64,000 nucleotides of DNA from Candidatus Eisenbacteria bacterium (GCA_018831195.1 JAHJDP010000119.1:1-64000), one strand, 5' to 3'. Positions 29,567 to 41,294 are shown, counted from the first letter of the stretch. The notes: a model not told the origin generated them from the sequence alone. Numbers and translations: made by a program.

Positions 29567-30424
29567 CTACTGGCTCAAAATAAACATGTCACCGTTGAGG
29601 GTGTGCAATTCACACTCCGGCCCGCCGGTTCCGGCGCGCACACCCGACATATGCGTGACTTTATAGGCGCTCTTGCCATTCTTCTTCTCGCTCATCTCTG
29701 ATCTACCCGGCAGCGACACGACCTCAAAATCAGTAAAAACCTCGCCATTCATGGTTTTCATATAAAAATCCGCCGATAAATCCGATTGAAAATAGAGGCG
29801 CACATCGCCATTTATAGTCTCGAATTTGCACTTGTTTTTCGGGTTTGAATCGAACGCGATCAGGACTTTTCCATTTATCGCGGAAATCTCTCCCGAGCCG
29901 CGAAGCCCTTTCATCGATATTGCCCCATTGACGTTGCTTGCTTGAAAATCCCCCCTGATGGAGTGGACGTTGATATCCCCCTCATCAACGGTTTTCAAGT
30001 CAATCTGACAATCCTTCGGTATCTCAAGAGTGAAGTCGTAGACGACTTTGTATCCTTCGCGGCGGTATCCCCGCCAATCGATCCCGCGGTCCCCGCCGCG
30101 GCGAAAGGGCCCGTCAACATAGAATTCAATCAGCTCGGCCCCTTCGAAGATGTCGAGGATAACTTCTTCCTGAGCTTCCTTCACCTTTTCGTCCGAGCGC
30201 GCAGTAATGGACTTTCGAATCCTCACCTGAATTTCATCGCCATCGTAACCTTTCACATCAATAGATCCGAACACATTATCTACAATAACAAGCCGCTCTC
30301 CTCTGGGATTTTCAAATCGCAGGACTTTTGAAAAGTCCTCATTGACGACAATATCCGCCGCCAATACCGGCGTGCTGGAGACAATGACGGGAATCATGAA
30401 CAGAACGAAGATATATTGAGTCAT
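29567..30424 (-). CDS. Secreted DUF4097 beta-helical protein (paralogue)
   Basis: 285 residues. Signal peptide FVLFMIPVIVSSTPVLA. Strand repeats are VDNVFGSIDVKGYDGDEIQV, VDEGDINVHSIRGDFQASN, VNGAISMKGLRGSGEISA, INGKVLIAFDS, INGDVRLYFQSDL, MNGEVFTDFEV, LNGDMFILSQ. The two DUF4097 genes share architecture and the phrase FTDFEV, so they are an old tandem duplication. Third gene of the sigma operon, 24 bases after the anti-sigma gene. Probably made under control of the operon's own sigma factor; role unknown. Confidence 0.85.
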   Translation of the reverse strand: MTQYIFVLFMIPVIVSSTPVLAADIVVNEDFSKVLRFENPRGERLVIVDNVFGSIDVKGYDGDEIQVRIRKSITARSDEKVKEAQEEVILDIFEGAELIEFYVDGPFRRGGDRGIDWRGYRREGYKVVYDFTLEIPKDCQIDLKTVDEGDINVHSIRGDFQASNVNGAISMKGLRGSGEISAINGKVLIAFDSNPKNKCKFETINGDVRLYFQSDLSADFYMKTMNGEVFTDFEVVSLPGRSEMSEKKNGKSAYKVTHMSGVRAGTGGPECELHTLNGDMFILSQ

Positions 30425-30448
30425 GATGATTTCCCCATTCTATTTCTT

Positions 30449-31261
30449 TTACAATAATGCATGGATTTTACTTTCCGCGTGTTTTTTTACGGATGGGCTC
30501 ACGTCTGGTTTGGTGATGAAGATTTTCAGCGCTTCCAGGGCCTTCTTCTCCTGAAGGGCTATTAGAAAATCAATGAGGGCCACCTGAACCATCGGGGAGG
30601 ACTCCTGCGAAAGCGCCAATGACAGGGCATCCAAAACGCCTGATTCGTGAGGAAAGAATGTCAATGCGTCGACGGCGGCGAGGCGGACATTTTCATTGGG
30701 ATCGGAGTTGAGGATGCGGGTCAGGTTTGTCAATAGCCGGGTGGAGGGGACATCGACCCTGGTGCTCCAGTTCACCCCTCGCAGGCGCTCACTCGAAGAA
30801 TCTTGCGATAGCAGTGATAATGACACCATTTGGTTCATTTGTTGAATTTCAGAACGCATGTGCGCGAGCTCTTCTTTTGATCCTTCGCCCGCGTTGAAAC
30901 GGGAGCCCGCCGCCATTCCCACCATAAGAACGGCGGCGGTCATCATCAGCTGCACGGCGGGCCGGCGGGGCCACCAGGCTTCAAGCCACAACTCAAGGCG
31001 CCTCCACCAAGATGTATTTGCGGATTCCCCCAACCGCCTCTTTTCCGCTTCCAACATCGGATAAAACCGGCCCCGCAAATCCGGGCTCGGTTCTTCGTCG
31101 GGGAAATCGGCCAGTTCCACCCATGTTTTTTCCATATATTCCAATTCCAACCGGCAGGTTTCGCACTGGCTCAAGTGTGATTCAAACAGGTGAAGTTCAT
31201 CGGAGGGGATTTGCCCCGCCAAATAATCCGGTATCAGCTCTTGAATCCTTTTACAGTTCAT
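30449..31261 (-). CDS. Membrane anti-sigma factor: zf-HC2 plus HEAT-repeat domain
   Basis: 270 residues. N-terminal zinc-binding anti-sigma domain with HLSQCETC (His29, Cys33, Cys36) and an extra Cys at residue 3. One membrane helix (AVQLMMTAAVLMVGMAAGS, residues ~101-119). Outside it, HEAT-like repeats in ~170-265 (NVRLAAVDALTFFPHESGVLDAL, MVQVALIDFLIALQEKKALEAL). It would hold the sigma factor encoded just upstream; their genes overlap by 4 bases. The HEAT part, probably periplasmic, may sense a protein partner such as the DUF4097 products, an inference. Confidence 0.88.
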   Translation of the reverse strand: MNCKRIQELIPDYLAGQIPSDELHLFESHLSQCETCRLELEYMEKTWVELADFPDEEPSPDLRGRFYPMLEAEKRRLGESANTSWWRRLELWLEAWWPRRPAVQLMMTAAVLMVGMAAGSRFNAGEGSKEELAHMRSEIQQMNQMVSLSLLSQDSSSERLRGVNWSTRVDVPSTRLLTNLTRILNSDPNENVRLAAVDALTFFPHESGVLDALSLALSQESSPMVQVALIDFLIALQEKKALEALKIFITKPDVSPSVKKHAESKIHALL

Positions 31262-31815
31262 TCTACGGCCTCATCTCTCTGCTCGTTAAACAGCCATTTC
31301 AAATCCCTGATGGCATAAAAGACTCTGGCTTTAACGGTTCCTACCGGACAGCCCAAAATTTTAGAAATTTCCGAATACCTTTGATTCTGGAATCGACTGA
31401 GAAGCAAAACCGTACGTCTTTCTTCGGATAGCCGGCTCAAGGCATCGTAGAGTTTTTGATGATTAAGAGACTGTTCGGTCAAATGATCCGGGTCGGGATC
31501 AGTGCCGGCTAATTCTTCAATCTCATCTGTAAATGTATATCGATGTCTCGCCTGTCTTAAATGATCTATCTTGATTCGGCAGGCAATTGAATACATCCAC
31601 GTCGTAAACTTGCCTTCACCCCGATATGTCCGGCGGTATTTTAACATTCTAAAAAAGACCTCTTGAACCAAATCCTCACTAAGTTGCCGGTTTCCCATCT
31701 GTCTGAGAAAGAAGTTATAGAGCCGCTTATGATATCTTTCGAAAAGACATCCCAGCTGATCGAGGTCGCCGTCTCGAACCGCCTGCATCAATTGTTCATC
31801 CGATGTCTCACGCAC
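31258..31815 (-). CDS. ECF RNA polymerase sigma factor (RpoE type)
   Basis: 185 residues. Region 2 reads FERYHKRLYNFFLRQMGN, LSEDLVQEVFFRMLKYRRTY and FTTWMYSIACRIKIDHLRQ; region 4 reads ALSRLSEERRTVLLLSRFQ, YSEISKILGCPVGTVKARV. This is a two-domain ECF factor. Start is a GTG at 31815; no better in-frame start lies between it and the promoter at 31850-31880. Overlaps the anti-sigma gene by 4 bases, so the pair is translationally coupled. The upstream -35/-10 pair is of ECF type, which suggests the factor drives its own operon. Confidence 0.92.
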   Translation of the reverse strand: MRETSDEQLMQAVRDGDLDQLGCLFERYHKRLYNFFLRQMGNRQLSEDLVQEVFFRMLKYRRTYRGEGKFTTWMYSIACRIKIDHLRQARHRYTFTDEIEELAGTDPDPDHLTEQSLNHQKLYDALSRLSEERRTVLLLSRFQNQRYSEISKILGCPVGTVKARVFYAIRDLKWLFNEQRDEAVE

Positions 31816-34636: not shown

Positions 34637-35290
34637 ATGGAATCCAAACAGGAGCCTGATCCGACGCATCCGATGAAGCGGCCCCGCGGAGCGGCTCCTC
34701 TTAACATTTGGGAGGAGCGTGATGGGTCACCTGAGACGTTGATCGAGGGTTGCCTGTCGCATGCGCCGGGTGCGTGGCAGGAGTTTCTGCGCCGATACTC
34801 ACGACTGATTTACGCCACGGTGAACCGGGTCGACCTGCCGGTTATCGAGCGGGAAGACGCCTTTCAGGCGGCTATCGCCGCCATCTACGCGAACCTGGCC
34901 ACACTGCGCCGTCCTGCGAAACTCGTTCCCTGGATCGTCGGAATCACCTGGCGCCAGGCCATCAACAGCATTCGCAAGCGCCCGCCTGAAATCAGGCAAC
35001 CCCGCGCTGATGGGGTCTTCGATGGGGAGCTGGCCACATGGCCGGCGACGGAGCCGCCACCCGATGAGGTTCTGGTATCACTGGAACGGGCCCAGCAGAC
35101 TGGCGAGGCGCTCGCGGCCCTGTCGGAGCGCTGCCGTCGCCTCATCCAATATTTCTTCTATGAAGATCCGCAGCCCGGCTACGGCGAGATCGCTCGCCGC
35201 GAGGGGATCCCCATTGGCAGCCTGGGGCCGACCCGTGCGCGCTGCCTGGCCCGGATGCGTCGGTACTTCGAGGAGCGAGGCTGGCTGTAG
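34637..35290 (+). CDS. ECF-like RNA polymerase sigma factor of the CHAT operon
   Basis: 217 residues. Region 2 around residues 30-115 (WQEFLRRYSRLIYATVNRV, EREDAFQAAIAAIYANL, PAKLVPWIVGITWRQAINSIRK) and region 4 around 150-215 (LSERCRRLIQYFFYED, YGEIARREGIPIGSLGPTRARCLARMRR). The acidic linker between them is long. A GTG at 34619 is also in frame, but its purine tract abuts it; the ATG at 34637 gives MESKQEPDPTHP. The next gene follows after 127 bases with a strong ribosome site. It is divergent from the regulatory protein kinase. Likely directs transcription in response to the downstream protease or its regulator. Confidence 0.85.
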   Translation: MESKQEPDPTHPMKRPRGAAPLNIWEERDGSPETLIEGCLSHAPGAWQEFLRRYSRLIYATVNRVDLPVIEREDAFQAAIAAIYANLATLRRPAKLVPWIVGITWRQAINSIRKRPPEIRQPRADGVFDGELATWPATEPPPDEVLVSLERAQQTGEALAALSERCRRLIQYFFYEDPQPGYGEIARREGIPIGSLGPTRARCLARMRRYFEERGWL

Positions 35291-35417
35291 GCGAGGGGCA
35301 GGGCTCCAAAGCCGGGTCATAGATGTATCAGAAGGAAGGGTCGCAACGACCTCTGGGTAGCTGAAGCTGGTGTGCCGCGAAAGGCCGGCACGATGGCAGG
35401 ACCACATAGGAGGAGAG

Positions 35418-36092
35418 ATGCCGGAGCACTTATCCGACGAAGAGATCATCCGGCTGTGTCTGCAAACGAGCGAGGGAGATGCGCCGGGCCGTGAAGAGGC
35501 GCGGCACCTGCAGTCCGGGTGCGTTGATTGTGGCCGCCGGTTCGCGCAAATCCAAACGATCCTCGAGAGTCTCGCGGCGGGACCGCTGGCCGAAGTCCCC
35601 GAGCGGCTGATGGCGCGCGCCAGGGAATGGATCGAAGATCAGGAACGCAGTTTCCACAAACATGCCGCGAGCCATGCGCTCAAGCGGCGTCTGGCCAAGG
35701 AGCTGGAAGTCATTCGGGCCGCGCTGGTGATGGACGGCTCTCCCGGAAGCCTACTGGCCGGTGTGCGGGGGACCTCTTCGACTACCAGTCGGCATCTTCT
35801 ATTTGAATCACCCGCGGGCAGCGTTCACGTCATGATCGAATCGGCGCCGGAGGAGACGAGTCTCATCAGGGGCCAGTTCCTGCCAGCGGGAGCCGCGGCC
35901 CCCGCGGCCGGGGCCCAGGCCGTCCTGGTGGAGGGCCAGGACCAAGACGCGGCGTGCCTTTGCCCACTCTCACCGGCAGGCGAGTTTATTTTCCGCGGCG
36001 TCGGCGGGCCGGATATCCACCTGGCCATCGAGTGGGCGGAGTGTCAGGTCGTGCTCGACCCGATCCATTTCCCCCATCCGGCCGATGACTGA
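35418..36092 (+). CDS. Soluble anti-sigma-like protein with degenerate zf-HC2
   Basis: 224 residues. N-terminal part (HLSDEEIIRLCLQTSEG) leads to HLQSGCVDCGRRF, i.e. His30, Cys35, Cys38: one residue more than the usual H-x3-C-x2-C of zf-HC2 anti-sigma domains. No membrane helix. A middle helix (ALKRRLAKELEVIRAALVMD) is followed by a beta domain (HLLFESPAGSVHVMIESAP, SPAGEFIFRGVGGPDIHLAIEW) that looks like a small carboxypeptidase-regulatory or sensor fold. AGGAGGAG precedes the ATG at 35418. The stop overlaps the CHAT gene start by 8 bases. Likely binds the sigma factor; could be a protease substrate, which is an inference. Confidence 0.65.
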   Translation: MPEHLSDEEIIRLCLQTSEGDAPGREEARHLQSGCVDCGRRFAQIQTILESLAAGPLAEVPERLMARAREWIEDQERSFHKHAASHALKRRLAKELEVIRAALVMDGSPGSLLAGVRGTSSTTSRHLLFESPAGSVHVMIESAPEETSLIRGQFLPAGAAAPAAGAQAVLVEGQDQDAACLCPLSPAGEFIFRGVGGPDIHLAIEWAECQVVLDPIHFPHPADD

Positions 36093-39084
36093 CGGGTCAC
36101 GCACCGCCCGGCGGGCCCGCGAACTCATGGCCCTGACATCGGTCGCTTTACGAGAAGATCTCATCGCGCGGCCCCTGGTGGACTCTGCCGGGGTGGCCGC
36201 CGCGCTGCGCCAGGAAGCCAGCCTGCACTACCTCGTCGATGCCGCCGAGGCGCGCCGCATTGCCGGCGTGGCGCTCCAGGTGGCGGCGCAATCCACCGAT
36301 CCGGTCGCCCGCGGTTGGGCCGAACGCACGCTGGCTGAGGCCCTGCTGTTCTCGGGGCGCATGCGCGAGGCGGATGGCGCATACGCGCGAGCAGTGGTGG
36401 CTTGGAAGGAAGCCGGGACCCATGCCCTTCTCGGTCAGCTTCTGGTGGGGCGCATCCATGTCTTGACATTGCTGGGCCGCATGGATGAGGTCCACGCCAC
36501 GGCCCGCGAGGCGCAGAACCTGCTGGCCGCCGCCGGTGATCGGACCTATCTTGCGAAGCTGGCGATGAATCTGGGTAGTCTCCACTTCCAACGCGATGAG
36601 CCCGCCGAAGCGCTGGCTCAGTATGAGCGGGCGGCGGATCTGTTCGCCCAACTGGGCGTGCGTGATCAATCTGTTATAGGCCTCGAGGTCAACCGGGCTG
36701 TCGCCCTGACGCAAATCGATCGGGACGAGGAGGCCCTGCGCCTCTTCACATCTCTGTCGCGTGAGTGCGGCCGCCGAGGGTTCGGGCTCCTTCAAGCCCA
36801 GGTTTGGATGAACGCCGCTTATGTACATGCGCTGCGCGGGGATTCCGATCTCGCATTGGCGCAGTCAGTGCGGGCCACGGCCTATTTCCGCGAGACCGGC
36901 CACCCCGCATTTCTGGGGAACTGCTTGATCAATCACGCAGAAATGTACCAGCAGCTCAATCTGCATCGCGATGCGTTGCCGCTTGTACAAGAAGCGGCTG
37001 GGCTGTTCGATAGCGAGGATCTTCGCTACGACCGGGCGCTGGCACTGGCGCAGAGCGCCTGGATTCACCTGGAGATGGGAGAGCTATCGGCTGCTCTGCA
37101 GGCGGGCCGCGAGGCCATGCGTCTCTTCAGGGGGGAGAAGAATTTATCGCGGGCGGCGGTCATGCGGCTGCTCCAGGCCGAAGTCCTCTTGTGCCAGGGA
37201 GAGCGATCCCGCGGCCGGCGCCAGGCGCGGACAGCATTGCAGGCCTTCCGTCATCTCGGTCTGCTGCGTTGGGAAGCGGCCGCGTCGGTCTTTCTCGCTC
37301 AGATCCCGTCGAAGCGCTCCCCACGGGCGAGGATCGCCGCGATGGAGGAACTCCTGGCCCGCATTCCCAAGAGACTTTATCCGATTCAGACCAGTGCGGC
37401 GCTGGAACAGCTGGGGCGCGGGTACGAGGAGGCCGATGCCCCGCGCGAGGCTGGCCGGGCCTATGCGCGCGCCGTGAATCGTCTCGAGGGTATGCGCCTG
37501 CGCGCTCCAACCGAGGATTCCAAGATCGCCTTTCTGAGTGACAAGACGCACCTGTACGATCACCTCCTCAGGCTCGAACTCGCGCGCCCGCGTCCCTCAG
37601 TCCAACGGCTCTTTGCCTGGATGGAGCGGGCTCGAGCCCAGAGCCTGTGGGATCGCATCCGTCATCCCGCCTCCGAACCCCTTGATGGAGAAGAGGGCCC
37701 ATTCGCGGCACGGCCTTCGCCCGCCGCGCAGAAGGGGGTCGCCCTCCGGCGGCGGCTTTCCTGGCTGCACGCCCGCGTCTCTCGGTTGGAGCTTGGCACG
37801 CCCGCGGATCGTCAGCGGGCGGATGATCTGCGCCGCGATCTGCGCCGCGCGGAAGAGGAGTGGACGTGTCTGCGCCGCACATTGCGCGAGGGGCAACAAG
37901 GGGGCGCTTCACGAAGGCGCCCAGGGGGGCGAGCGGCAGCCTCTTCGCCAACAGATTCAGCGGCCGGGCCCGGTCCGGCAAGGGGCATGCCGGATCTCGC
38001 CCCCTCGTTACGTTCCTTGATAGGCGCCCTTGACGACCAGCAAGGCTTTCTCAGTTACCACATAGCTGAGGGCTTCTCTCTTGCGATTGCGGTCACGGCG
38101 GCGGGTGCGCAGTCGTACCGACTCGCCGATGATCTTTCCCAGCGGCTGAGCGAGCTTCGCCGCGGCCTGGATTTCCAGTGGGCGGCCATGGCGGTAGCCA
38201 GCACCCGGGAGCGGGAAGGGCAGCGCCGGCCGGCCTCCGGCGCCGGAGCGGGCCGGGGGTATCCGGGACCCGCGGCCCCGCATGAGCTCTTCCAGACCGC
38301 CACCACATCGATCCTGCATCAGATGTACGAACTGCTCTGGCAGCCGCTCGTCGACGCCGGATTACCCGACTGCCGGCGCTGGGTCATCTCGCCGCACGGC
38401 GTCCTTCATCAGGTGCCTGTGGGGGCGCTCCTCGGTCCCGCGGGGTATCTATCAGAGCGCTGCGAGCTCGGGATCTGTCCCAGCGCGCGGGTCTGGTGCC
38501 GCACCCACGGCCGGAGGGCGCCCAAGCGGGCCTTTCTGGCGGGAGTCCCAACGCCCGATCTGCCGGCGATTGAGGCGGAGATCGAGATGACCCGCGAGCT
38601 TCTGTCGGGGTGGTCCGTCACCACCGATATGGCCCCCACGCGTGCGACCTTGCGCCGTGAGGCGGCCCGGGCGGGCCTCGTGCATCTGGCGGCTCACGGC
38701 GCACTGCGAACGGACAATCCGGCCTTCTCATCTATTCAACTGCAGGATGGCCCGCTCTATGTGCACGACCTCTCAGACTTCCGGTTGCCGGGGTCGACGG
38801 TCGTGCTGACCGCCTGTTCATCCGGCCGGGGTGTTGCGCCCGGCGGCGATGAGTGGATCGGCCTTGCCCGGGGGTTTTTATCCGCTGGAGCGCGTCATGT
38901 GGTGGCCAGCTTGTGGCCGATCCATGACGCCGCCACGCAGGAACTCATGGGGCGGTTCTATGCCGAGTTCGCCGGCCACGCGGACCCGACGCGGGCGCTC
39001 ACGGAGGCCATGCGGGGCACGCGCGCCAGCAGGCCGCACCCCTGGCATTGGGCCTCCTTCGCCGTTCTCAGCACGGCGGGGTAG
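36085..39084 (+). CDS. TPR-CHAT caspase-like protease
   Basis: 999 residues. Residues ~40-470 are helical TPR-like repeats (RGWAERTLAEALLFSGRM, KLAMNLGSLHFQRDEPAEALAQYERA, AALEQLGRGYEEADAPREAGRAYAR). A charged linker with Arg-rich coil follows to ~640. The CHAT domain fills ~700-999: WVISPHGVLHQVPVGALL, HLAAHGAL with His871, VLTACSSG with Cys911, ARGFLSAGARHVVASLW, and a final WASFAVLSTAG. His871/Cys911 form the expected dyad, so peptidase activity is likely. No signal peptide: cytosolic. It overlaps the anti-sigma-like gene by 8 bases. The sigma / anti-sigma-like / TPR-CHAT order resembles the CRISPR III-E Csx29-Csx30-RpoE set. Confidence 0.9.
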   Translation: MTDGSRTARRARELMALTSVALREDLIARPLVDSAGVAAALRQEASLHYLVDAAEARRIAGVALQVAAQSTDPVARGWAERTLAEALLFSGRMREADGAYARAVVAWKEAGTHALLGQLLVGRIHVLTLLGRMDEVHATAREAQNLLAAAGDRTYLAKLAMNLGSLHFQRDEPAEALAQYERAADLFAQLGVRDQSVIGLEVNRAVALTQIDRDEEALRLFTSLSRECGRRGFGLLQAQVWMNAAYVHALRGDSDLALAQSVRATAYFRETGHPAFLGNCLINHAEMYQQLNLHRDALPLVQEAAGLFDSEDLRYDRALALAQSAWIHLEMGELSAALQAGREAMRLFRGEKNLSRAAVMRLLQAEVLLCQGERSRGRRQARTALQAFRHLGLLRWEAAASVFLAQIPSKRSPRARIAAMEELLARIPKRLYPIQTSAALEQLGRGYEEADAPREAGRAYARAVNRLEGMRLRAPTEDSKIAFLSDKTHLYDHLLRLELARPRPSVQRLFAWMERARAQSLWDRIRHPASEPLDGEEGPFAARPSPAAQKGVALRRRLSWLHARVSRLELGTPADRQRADDLRRDLRRAEEEWTCLRRTLREGQQGGASRRRPGGRAAASSPTDSAAGPGPARGMPDLAPSLRSLIGALDDQQGFLSYHIAEGFSLAIAVTAAGAQSYRLADDLSQRLSELRRGLDFQWAAMAVASTREREGQRRPASGAGAGRGYPGPAAPHELFQTATTSILHQMYELLWQPLVDAGLPDCRRWVISPHGVLHQVPVGALLGPAGYLSERCELGICPSARVWCRTHGRRAPKRAFLAGVPTPDLPAIEAEIEMTRELLSGWSVTTDMAPTRATLRREAARAGLVHLAAHGALRTDNPAFSSIQLQDGPLYVHDLSDFRLPGSTVVLTACSSGRGVAPGGDEWIGLARGFLSAGARHVVASLWPIHDAATQELMGRFYAEFAGHADPTRALTEAMRGTRASRPHPWHWASFAVLSTAG

Positions 39085-39195: not shown

Positions 39196-40758
39196 ATGCG
39201 CCGATTGATCAACAGCCGGGTTTTTACGCCAGACCGGCGGTTCTGTGGAAACTTCCGAGTCGCCGCCCTCTTCGCGGCCGCACTACTCAGCGCCGCCGTT
39301 ATTGTTAAAGGGGAGTATGACCCCGGCTTCATTCAAGTTCAGCTGGCGGACGGGTACTCCATCGAATCTGTCAATGCATGCTATGGGACCGCCACGCGCG
39401 ACTCCTTGCCGCCGCTATACCTCCTGACGATTCCGGAGGGGTGCGATGAGCAGCTCTTGATCACCGATATGGCGGCCGACTCCGCCCGTTTCGTTTGTGT
39501 GGAACATGCCTATCGCGAGGAAACCCCTGAGGGGGTGCGTCAGATGATCGTGGCGGCCGTGGGTGGAACGATTGATCAATATTGGGATCAGAATGTGGTC
39601 GAGCGACTGCACCTGCCGCTGATTCAGGGAACGGCTCAAGGCGATGGGATTCTGGTGGCGGTGCTGGACACCGGAGTGCTGGCGACCCACGAGGCGCTGG
39701 CCGGTGCGATAGCGCCGGGCGGATATGACTTCATAGATAATGACGCCGAGCCGCTCGACGAGGCTAACGGCATCGACGATGACCTGGATGGACAGATCGA
39801 CGAAGGTTCGGGGCATGGAACACTGGTGGCGGGAGTCATCCACCTGGCGGCCCCTGGGGCGCAGATTCTCCCGGTGCGCGTTCTTGATGATGAAGGTCGA
39901 GGTACGACTTTTGCCCTGGCCAAGGGCATCCGCTATGCCGTCGAACAGGGGGCGGATATCATCAACATGAGTCTCGGGCTTCCCGAGCACTCCGGTGTCG
40001 TGGCCCACGAACTCGCACAGGCCTCGCTGGCCTCGGTCGGAATGGTGTCCGCCGTGGGCAATCTGGGGGTCGACAGCGTGCAGTATTATCCGGCGAGTGA
40101 CTTCCGAGTCCTCATGGTCGCGGCGCTTGATTCGATGGACGTGAAGGCTGACTTCTCAAGCTACCACGCCAAGGTGGCGCTCTCGGCGCCCGGCGTCGGT
40201 ATCATGGGGCCCTATTATGATGGAGCCTATGCCCTGGGGGCCGGCACCTCCTTCTCCGCAGCCTTCATTTCCGGGCAGTGTGCGCTGATCCTCGATTTAC
40301 TTCCCTCAATCAGCGCCGACGAGCTCTACAAGATCGTCGAACAAGGCACGATCGGTATCTACCACATCACCGAAAACCAATTGTACATTAACAGGCTCGG
40401 GACGGGTTGCTTCGACGGGAGGGAGACGCTTCGGGCCATAGGAATTCTGGCGGATGTCGGTCCCTTCGATGCGGAGCCATGGCCCATCATCACACCCAAT
40501 CCGGTGATGGCAGGCGAGACGGTCTATCTGGCCCTCCCCGACGAGGCCGCCGGGCAGGGATGGGTTCCTGCCGTGGCGCTATATGACATCGCGGGGCGTC
40601 GCCTGCACCGGTTCGCGCCGCAACCCCGCCAATCCGTCATTGCGTGGGATGGATCCGATCGCCGCGGTATGCGCCTCGCGCCGGGCGTCTATTACCTCCG
40701 CGTGAGCGGTCCCCGGGGCGCCGCATGGACCAACCGCGTCGTGGTCTTGTCTCGGTAG
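39196..40758 (+). CDS. Secreted subtilisin-like serine protease (S8) with FlgD/T9SS-like C-terminus
   Basis: 520 residues. Signal-like segment VAALFAAALLSAAVIVKG. A propeptide-like region (residues ~40-120) precedes the catalytic domain: Asp in VAVLDTGV, His in GSGHGTLVAGVI, Ser in GTSFSAAFISG, the order Asp-His-Ser of subtilases. GIDDDLDGQIDEGSG is a Ca-binding-like loop common in this family. The tail has TPNPVMAGE, VALYDIAGRRL, AWDGSDRRG, APGVYYLRV. I chose the ATG at 39196 because GAGGTGG is 7 bases upstream; the ATG at 39124 has no site. Secreted peptidase, substrate unknown. Confidence 0.88.
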   Translation: MRRLINSRVFTPDRRFCGNFRVAALFAAALLSAAVIVKGEYDPGFIQVQLADGYSIESVNACYGTATRDSLPPLYLLTIPEGCDEQLLITDMAADSARFVCVEHAYREETPEGVRQMIVAAVGGTIDQYWDQNVVERLHLPLIQGTAQGDGILVAVLDTGVLATHEALAGAIAPGGYDFIDNDAEPLDEANGIDDDLDGQIDEGSGHGTLVAGVIHLAAPGAQILPVRVLDDEGRGTTFALAKGIRYAVEQGADIINMSLGLPEHSGVVAHELAQASLASVGMVSAVGNLGVDSVQYYPASDFRVLMVAALDSMDVKADFSSYHAKVALSAPGVGIMGPYYDGAYALGAGTSFSAAFISGQCALILDLLPSISADELYKIVEQGTIGIYHITENQLYINRLGTGCFDGRETLRAIGILADVGPFDAEPWPIITPNPVMAGETVYLALPDEAAGQGWVPAVALYDIAGRRLHRFAPQPRQSVIAWDGSDRRGMRLAPGVYYLRVSGPRGAAWTNRVVVLSR

Positions 40759-40922
40759 CACCCCGCCCCGCGCTCCGCACCACCGGTCACGATTTTTATC
40801 ATCCGCATGTATCAAATCCCCGCCTCCCGCGACCTCTGATGCGAGGTCTCCCGCAGCCCGTTTCGATCATCGGTTCGGTTGGAGACCCGGTCTCGAGGGA
40901 ACAGGAAGGAGATTTTTGTAAA

Positions 40923-41294
40923 ATGAGGAAGGTACTTTTTGCACTGGGGATGATCGCTCTTCTGGCGGGCGGGGCATGGGCCCAAACAGGCGCTGTGACC
41001 GGCCTGGTTGTCGATGGCAACGGCGATGCGGTTGAGGGTGCGCGTGTGTCTCTCTGGCAGGATGGCGTCTGCGTAGCTTATGTCTTAACCGAAGCATCCG
41101 GTGTGTTCAATCTGATCGACATTCCGGAGGGTATCTACAATCTGAAAGCCGGCATGAAGCGTGTCGGCCAGGCGCTGATCGAAGGCGTCGAGATACTCGA
41201 CGGCCAGATCACGGATGTTGGCACCGTCACCTTGGTCGGGTTGAGCCAGGGTCCCTCGAATGGGGGGAAACTCCAATACCAGCAGGGCCGTTGA
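40923..41294 (+). CDS. Small secreted protein with carboxypeptidase-regulatory-like fold
   Basis: 123 residues. Signal peptide LFALGMIALLAGGAWA. The mature part is one beta-sandwich: GAVTGLVVDGNGDAVEGARV, AYVLTEASGVFNLIDIPEG and IYNLKAGMKRVGQ. This is the CarboxypepD-reg/Cna-B-like pattern (G-x-V-x-D-x-x-G-x-x-(V/I)-x-G-A). It is single-domain, so probably a stalk or binding module. AAGGAGA lies 10 bases before the ATG, slightly long. A strong intrinsic terminator follows about 100 bases after its stop. Confidence 0.8.
   Translation: MRKVLFALGMIALLAGGAWAQTGAVTGLVVDGNGDAVEGARVSLWQDGVCVAYVLTEASGVFNLIDIPEGIYNLKAGMKRVGQALIEGVEILDGQITDVGTVTLVGLSQGPSNGGKLQYQQGR

Follow-up and report, generated by a model that had tools for sequence, protein, structure and literature searches.

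Only one sigma switch controlled by a CHAT protease is described in the literature that we searched: it is guided by RNA and occurs within type III-E CRISPR only, where the CASP/Craspase system comprises Cas7-11, Csx29, Csx30 and CASP-sigma (Strecker et al. 2022, PMC10028731; PMC9729208). Our full-text search for CHAT in combination with sigma or anti-sigma factors led to the papers on CASP/Craspase and CalpL, and to none on a CRISPR-free system; its coverage is partial and an earlier mention is possible. Here we analyze a module of four genes located in a 64,000-nt stretch (GCA_018831195.1 JAHJDP010000119.1:1-64000, hereafter the window) of the 5.24-Mb genome of a Candidatus Eisenbacteria bacterium. 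The genes encode an extracytoplasmic function (ECF) sigma factor, a soluble anti-sigma-like protein (the middle protein), a TPR-CHAT protein and an S8 subtilase. In kind, the module seems to be related to the sigma switch that a protease controls in type III-E, but to stand alone.

Both CASP/Craspase and the window module encode a TPR-CHAT protease, a sigma inhibitor and an ECF sigma factor together, and among solved structures the best sequence match of the window CHAT domain is Csx29. Nonetheless, the window protein reaches only 32.2 bits with the Csx29 model NF041237 (cut-off 300). The predicted inhibitor is an anti-sigma factor of the zinc anti-sigma (ZAS) type, to which Csx30 gives no match in the profile or the best fold matches, and the module has a conserved S8 subtilase and a promoter of its own. 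An earlier, sequence-only reading of the locus had called it CRISPR-free, and this holds: CRISPR-type repeats are absent from 30-43 kb of the window and Cas1 is absent from the genome. Cas7-11 is not among the genes neighbouring the module (it was not searched for genome-wide). Given that there is no CRISPR array or cas1, that the Csx29 model stays far below its cut-off and that Csx30 is lacking, the module is not a member of CASP/Craspase, even though it would work like CASP through a CHAT cleavage step that we infer.

Pathways in which a membrane-bound ZAS anti-sigma undergoes regulated proteolysis (RseA/DegS, RsiW) resemble the module in that an anti-sigma domain holds an ECF sigma factor and that release, as we propose for the window, is by proteolysis; here, however, a soluble anti-sigma is paired with a candidate protease from its own operon, a cytosolic CHAT protein. 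The soluble zinc anti-sigmas RsrA and ChrR share the ZAS fold, as judged by profile, and ChrR, too, has a beta domain, a sensor, at its C-terminus. What differs is that the C-terminal domain of the window protein is CarboxypepD_reg-like and tied to CHAT, and that the metal site is degenerate or lost in several members. In other loci of the same phylum CHAT, ECF sigma and ZAS anti-sigma genes are also adjacent, but there the CHAT protein is exported, the anti-sigma spans the membrane and the beta domain of the window family is absent.

Gene content and conservation of the module

Domain searches find the sigma, soluble middle and TPR-CHAT genes in place as the sequence-only reading had them. 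The sigma gene (34637-35290, plus strand, like all features of the module) encodes a product that matches TIGR02937 with 60.9 bits (cut-off 42.9) over residues 46-210 and PF04542 with 29.5 bits (cut-off 24). It contains the sigma2 and sigma4 regions and no other sigma regions, which makes it an ECF sigma factor, and in a PDB profile search it matches the solved structures of AlgU, SigW and RpoE. Region 4 carries the recognition helix GSLGPTRARC; residues G182, S183, G185, P186, R188, R190 and C191 are invariant in a 14-member alignment. The anti-sigma (35418-36092), TPR-CHAT (36085-39084) and S8 (39196-40758) genes follow, and the 8-base overlap of the middle and CHAT genes noted earlier is exact (36085-36092). 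The earlier picture of one tight operon of three genes needs to be amended: the genes are indeed neighbours, but S8 had been missed as a fourth member, and a gap of 127 bp, which holds an internal promoter-like site, parts the sigma gene from the remaining module.

To find relatives, sigma factors with the recognition helix GS[IL]GPTRARC were scanned for in one genome per species, and the best 80 of 403 confirmed stretches were read. Many loci come from metagenome-assembled genomes (MAGs); cultured hosts among them are Rubrivivax pictus W35, Ideonella sp. A 288 and Rubrobacter marinus. Neighbourhood in relatives, a prediction of the sequence-only reading, is borne out: middle and CHAT homologues lie side by side, and sigma, middle, CHAT and S8 genes occur together in at least six phyla (Eisenbacteria, Burkholderiales, Planctomycetota, Chloroflexota, Actinomycetota and Krumholzibacteriota). 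The Gemmatimonadota loci found end before S8. Because the set is conserved across phyla, a chance grouping of the genes can be excluded.

The linkage is best judged on 48 loci with at least 6 kb of downstream and 4 kb of upstream flank, 37 of which contain the complete four-gene set. CHAT is present in 38 of the 39 loci whose anti-sigma has the C-terminal domain and in none of the 9 without it (Fisher p = 6e-9; these loci were ranked by similarity to the window sigma factor and share ancestry, so that p-values overstate their independence). S8 is adjacent in 37/38 CHAT-bearing loci against 0/10 CHAT-less loci. For Eisenbacteria, a comparison of two match lists by reading shows that all 26 full-length anti-sigma matches adjoin a TPR-CHAT gene. 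Six CHAT-less sister sigma factors from Chloroflexota are followed in the same slot by a ZAS-motif anti-sigma with a transmembrane segment. One Eisenbacteria locus (L075/L061, RS_16_23) has two sigma/anti-sigma pairs common to one CHAT and one S8 gene.

The anti-sigma, CHAT and S8 proteins

Searched as a single sequence, the middle protein gives no Pfam or NCBIfam match. With a 68-member profile, its N-terminal part matches the solved anti-sigmas RsiW (E 0.0013), ChrR (0.0024) and RslA (0.0052), and its C-terminal part matches beta-sandwich proteins; Pfam finds CarboxypepD_reg in 16 and zf-HC2 in 2 of the 68 members. AlphaFold2 predicts four helices plus a beta sandwich (mean predicted local distance difference test score, pLDDT, of 85.8). 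The ZAS domain is encoded beside its ECF sigma factor, and the middle gene adjoins the sigma gene in nearly all loci. The H-x4-C-x2-C site reported earlier is present as HLQSGCVDC, whereas relatives have the canonical H-x3-C-x2-C in several cases and have lost the site in others. These profile and fold matches point to a soluble ZAS-type anti-sigma with a transthyretin/CarboxypepD_reg-like beta domain, which is predicted to inhibit the sigma factor.

The sequence-only reading had proposed to look for a conserved cleavage segment between the zinc site and the beta domain. A conserved segment is found at the start of the beta part, between two of its strands (97-107 and 124-131): the loop from Asp106 to Arg117 (35733-35768), with the pattern D-(S/G)...G-x-R. 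Arg117 is one of just two residues that are invariant in 68/68 middle-protein sequences, and residues 111-120 have a mean pLDDT of only 61. Being conserved and yet flexible, the loop has the appearance expected of a recognition or cleavage segment, and it is our candidate for that role.

The CHAT domain matches PF12770 with 184 bits, above the cut-off. His871 (38695-38697) and Cys911 (38815-38817) had been assigned correctly as the catalytic dyad; each lies 14 residues beyond its position in the alignment (857 and 897). Both residues are intact in 70/70 copies in which the two columns are covered, and the dyad is thus retained in homologues as the earlier reading would have it. The CHAT proteins of the module have a long TPR region, and the window protein is without an export signal (simple hydropathy served throughout to call start codons, export signals and transmembrane segments).

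Association of CHAT with ECF sigma factors extends beyond the module. All five CHAT genes of the window genome lie beside an ECF sigma gene, and phylum-wide such a gene is found within 1.1 kb of 38 of the 53 CHAT genes that are flanked by 1.5 kb on either side. The remaining four CHAT genes in the window genome (L051-L054; G000 C117, C26, C2) are each next to an ECF sigma and a transmembrane ZAS-type anti-sigma gene; their products have hydrophobic N- or C-terminal segments (one just under the threshold) and form a putative exported class. Where the anti-sigma is soluble, the partner CHAT is without export signal in 16/16 cases. Where it is transmembrane, the CHAT protein has an export or hydrophobic segment in 18/24 cases and is cytosolic in 6/24, and exported CHAT never occurs with a soluble anti-sigma (p = 1.5e-6, with shared ancestry left uncorrected). 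The CHAT protease and the anti-sigma thus tend to occupy the same compartment, as is expected if one acts on the other.

The window S8 protein matches PF00082 with 125.7 bits and combines an N-terminal hydrophobic export signal with a propeptide-like region, an intact Asp/His/Ser triad and a FlgD_ig-like tail. The triad is intact in all fully covered copies, and the export signal is found in most phyla of the set. Most of the Actinomycetota modules (L105, L106, L121, L124, L134, L138, L139 and L150) have an S8 without the N-terminal hydrophobic stretch and an altered gene order; in L121 the anti-sigma gene is codirectional with CHAT and not with sigma. In an Aquabacterium MAG (L125:3307-5439) the TPR region is joined in-frame to S8 and the CHAT domain is missing, which is either a natural fusion or an assembly artefact.

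A promoter-like motif shared by the module and its neighbours

Two-block motif discovery 5' of Eisenbacteria sigma genes yields a motif with a score of 147.6, against 120 in Markov controls; first scans with single words, dyads and few-seed searches had given nothing above control. From position and strand analysis its natural reading is GTATCA(G)-N14-16-C[GC]ACNNCT. At the sigma/anti-sigma junction GTATCA occurs 26 times in sense and not once in antisense orientation over 76 modules, where the background predicts about one occurrence. An arrangement of a sigma promoter plus antisense sites was considered and is overturned by these statistics together with the split-off S8 cases, in which S8 is divergent and the motif faces it.

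The strict form GTATCA-N14-17-CGACNNCTG has two occurrences in all of the 5.24-Mb genome, and this operon contains both; control patterns are rare. Site B (GTATCA-N16-CGACCTCTG, 35325-35355) lies in the gap between sigma and anti-sigma, about 63 bp before the anti-sigma ATG. Site C (GTATCA-N15-CGACCTCTG, 40809-40838) lies 3' of the S8 stop, upstream of its presumed target, a gene for a small CarboxypepD_reg protein with a hydrophobic N-terminal stretch (40923-41294, PF13620 39.4 bits). In genome G005 the strict motif is again found at the anti-sigma junction and at a CarboxypepD_reg gene homologous to the window one, and a slightly looser form precedes a second S8 gene. In several Eisenbacteria the motif faces a divergent glycosyltransferase gene. 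Given the co-location, the spacing and the conserved recognition helix, the module sigma factor probably recognises a GTATCA-N15-CGACNNCT promoter.

Some further observations concern these neighbours and sites. Glycosyltransferase genes recur beside Eisenbacteria modules (L074, L082, L066, L095, L061, L270), several of them facing a GTATCA motif. A third, looser copy in the window genome, GTATCA-N16-CGACCTC (G000:C42:79525-79553, minus strand), has no clear gene start immediately behind it. Loose AGGT...CTGATAC sites outside the modules were discarded as candidates, being mostly at control frequency and inside genes.

A proposed protease-controlled switch and its alternatives

The gene set, the domains (the anti-sigma-like one included), the intact active sites, the matching of topology and compartment and the motif are computed results. 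The explanation that we consider best, and to which we give an even chance, is a self-contained cytosolic switch in which CHAT cuts the anti-sigma and the sigma factor is freed. At rest, the soluble ZAS-type anti-sigma would hold the ECF sigma factor. Upon a signal sensed by the TPR part, the caspase-like CHAT domain would cut the anti-sigma and release the sigma factor. The cut would probably fall within or close to the flexible DS...GxR loop, where the beta domain starts; cleavage by CHAT is a well motivated proposal. Free sigma would then recognise its motif and transcribe the anti-sigma, CHAT and exported S8 genes from the promoter between sigma and anti-sigma. Neighbours with the same site would be further targets, namely the small secreted CarboxypepD_reg protein in the window and glycosyltransferases or a split-off S8 elsewhere. 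Newly made anti-sigma would reset the switch.

A divergently encoded Ser/Thr kinase, suggested earlier as an input, lies within 2.5 kb upstream in just 4 of the 65 modules that have such a flank, the window included; as the kinase is not conserved beside the module, this idea is unsupported. Near the kinase gene, positions 29567-31815 of the window (minus strand) hold another ECF sigma gene, accompanied by genes for a zf-HC2/HEAT anti-sigma and for a DUF4097 protein; this is an ordinary membrane-type sigma/anti-sigma pair.

Several points weigh against a CHAT-operated switch. The zinc ligands or a large part of the helical domain are gone from the middle proteins of Betaproteobacteria and from some of those of Eisenbacteria, and the invariant loop Arg could instead serve folding or ligand binding. 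An AlphaFold2 model of a sigma/anti-sigma chain (locus L075, translated through stop codons) has a predicted template modelling score of 0.51, with the sigma half alone matched and no inter-domain confidence figure, and for these reasons we make no claim on the interface. Searched alone, Burkholderiales, Planctomycetota and Actinomycetota gave no motif clearly above control. Finally, since Actinomycetota S8 proteins mostly are without export signal and the gene order there is different, the role of S8 may not be the same in all phyla.

The chief alternative casts CHAT and S8 solely as outputs: the anti-sigma would be released by a ligand or partner of its own, with the beta domain as sensor, the sigma factor would switch on the CHAT and S8 genes, and CHAT would be an executioner acting on other proteins of the cell. 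Both protease genes do lie downstream of a sigma-type promoter, most phyla have S8 as an exported effector and the CarboxypepD_reg/Ig-like beta domain is a common binding fold. Such a scheme, however, leaves unexplained why the beta domain is restricted to loci with CHAT, why CHAT is found in the compartment of its anti-sigma, loci of the exported class included, and why an invariant Arg sits in a flexible loop; we regard it as unlikely, though well worth keeping in mind. CHAT might also act by binding, its TPR region sequestering or presenting the anti-sigma (partner switching) while catalysis is incidental. The long TPR region would suit this, but the His/Cys pair is intact in every copy with both columns covered, in several phyla, which makes the idea quite improbable.

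We give no more weight to the notion that S8 rather than CHAT removes the anti-sigma, or that CHAT activates S8 in a cascade, at least in Actinomycetota. The S8 linkage is as tight as that of CHAT and the hydrophobic stretch is missing in most Actinomycetota S8 proteins; in most other phyla, however, S8 bears an export signal, and an anti-sigma in the cytosol would be out of its reach. Least probable of all, by a small step, seems the idea that CHAT and the subtilase form an abortive unit for phage defence or programmed death, which the sigma pair regulates. CHAT and subtilase domains are known in defence systems, the window subtilase matches the PADLOC subtilase model and there is a mechanistic parallel to CASP (PMC10028731), but PADLOC gives no match for sigma, middle or CHAT, and the recurrent neighbours in Eisenbacteria are glycosyltransferases.

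If CHAT indeed operates the switch, its occurrence without CRISPR in six phyla or more would mean that many CHAT proteases have a definite task, namely sigma release. It would also supply a candidate substrate and cleavage segment for CHAT, as well as a promoter motif on which reporters could be built, and it would make the origin of the type III-E CASP module testable. More tentatively, and in our estimate somewhat short of probable, CHAT proteases may be general, CRISPR-independent activators of ECF sigma factors throughout bacteria, with a cytosolic class (soluble ZAS/beta anti-sigma, S8, GTATCA-N15-CGACNNCT) and an exported class (transmembrane anti-sigma); type III-E CRISPR would then have captured a switch of this kind.

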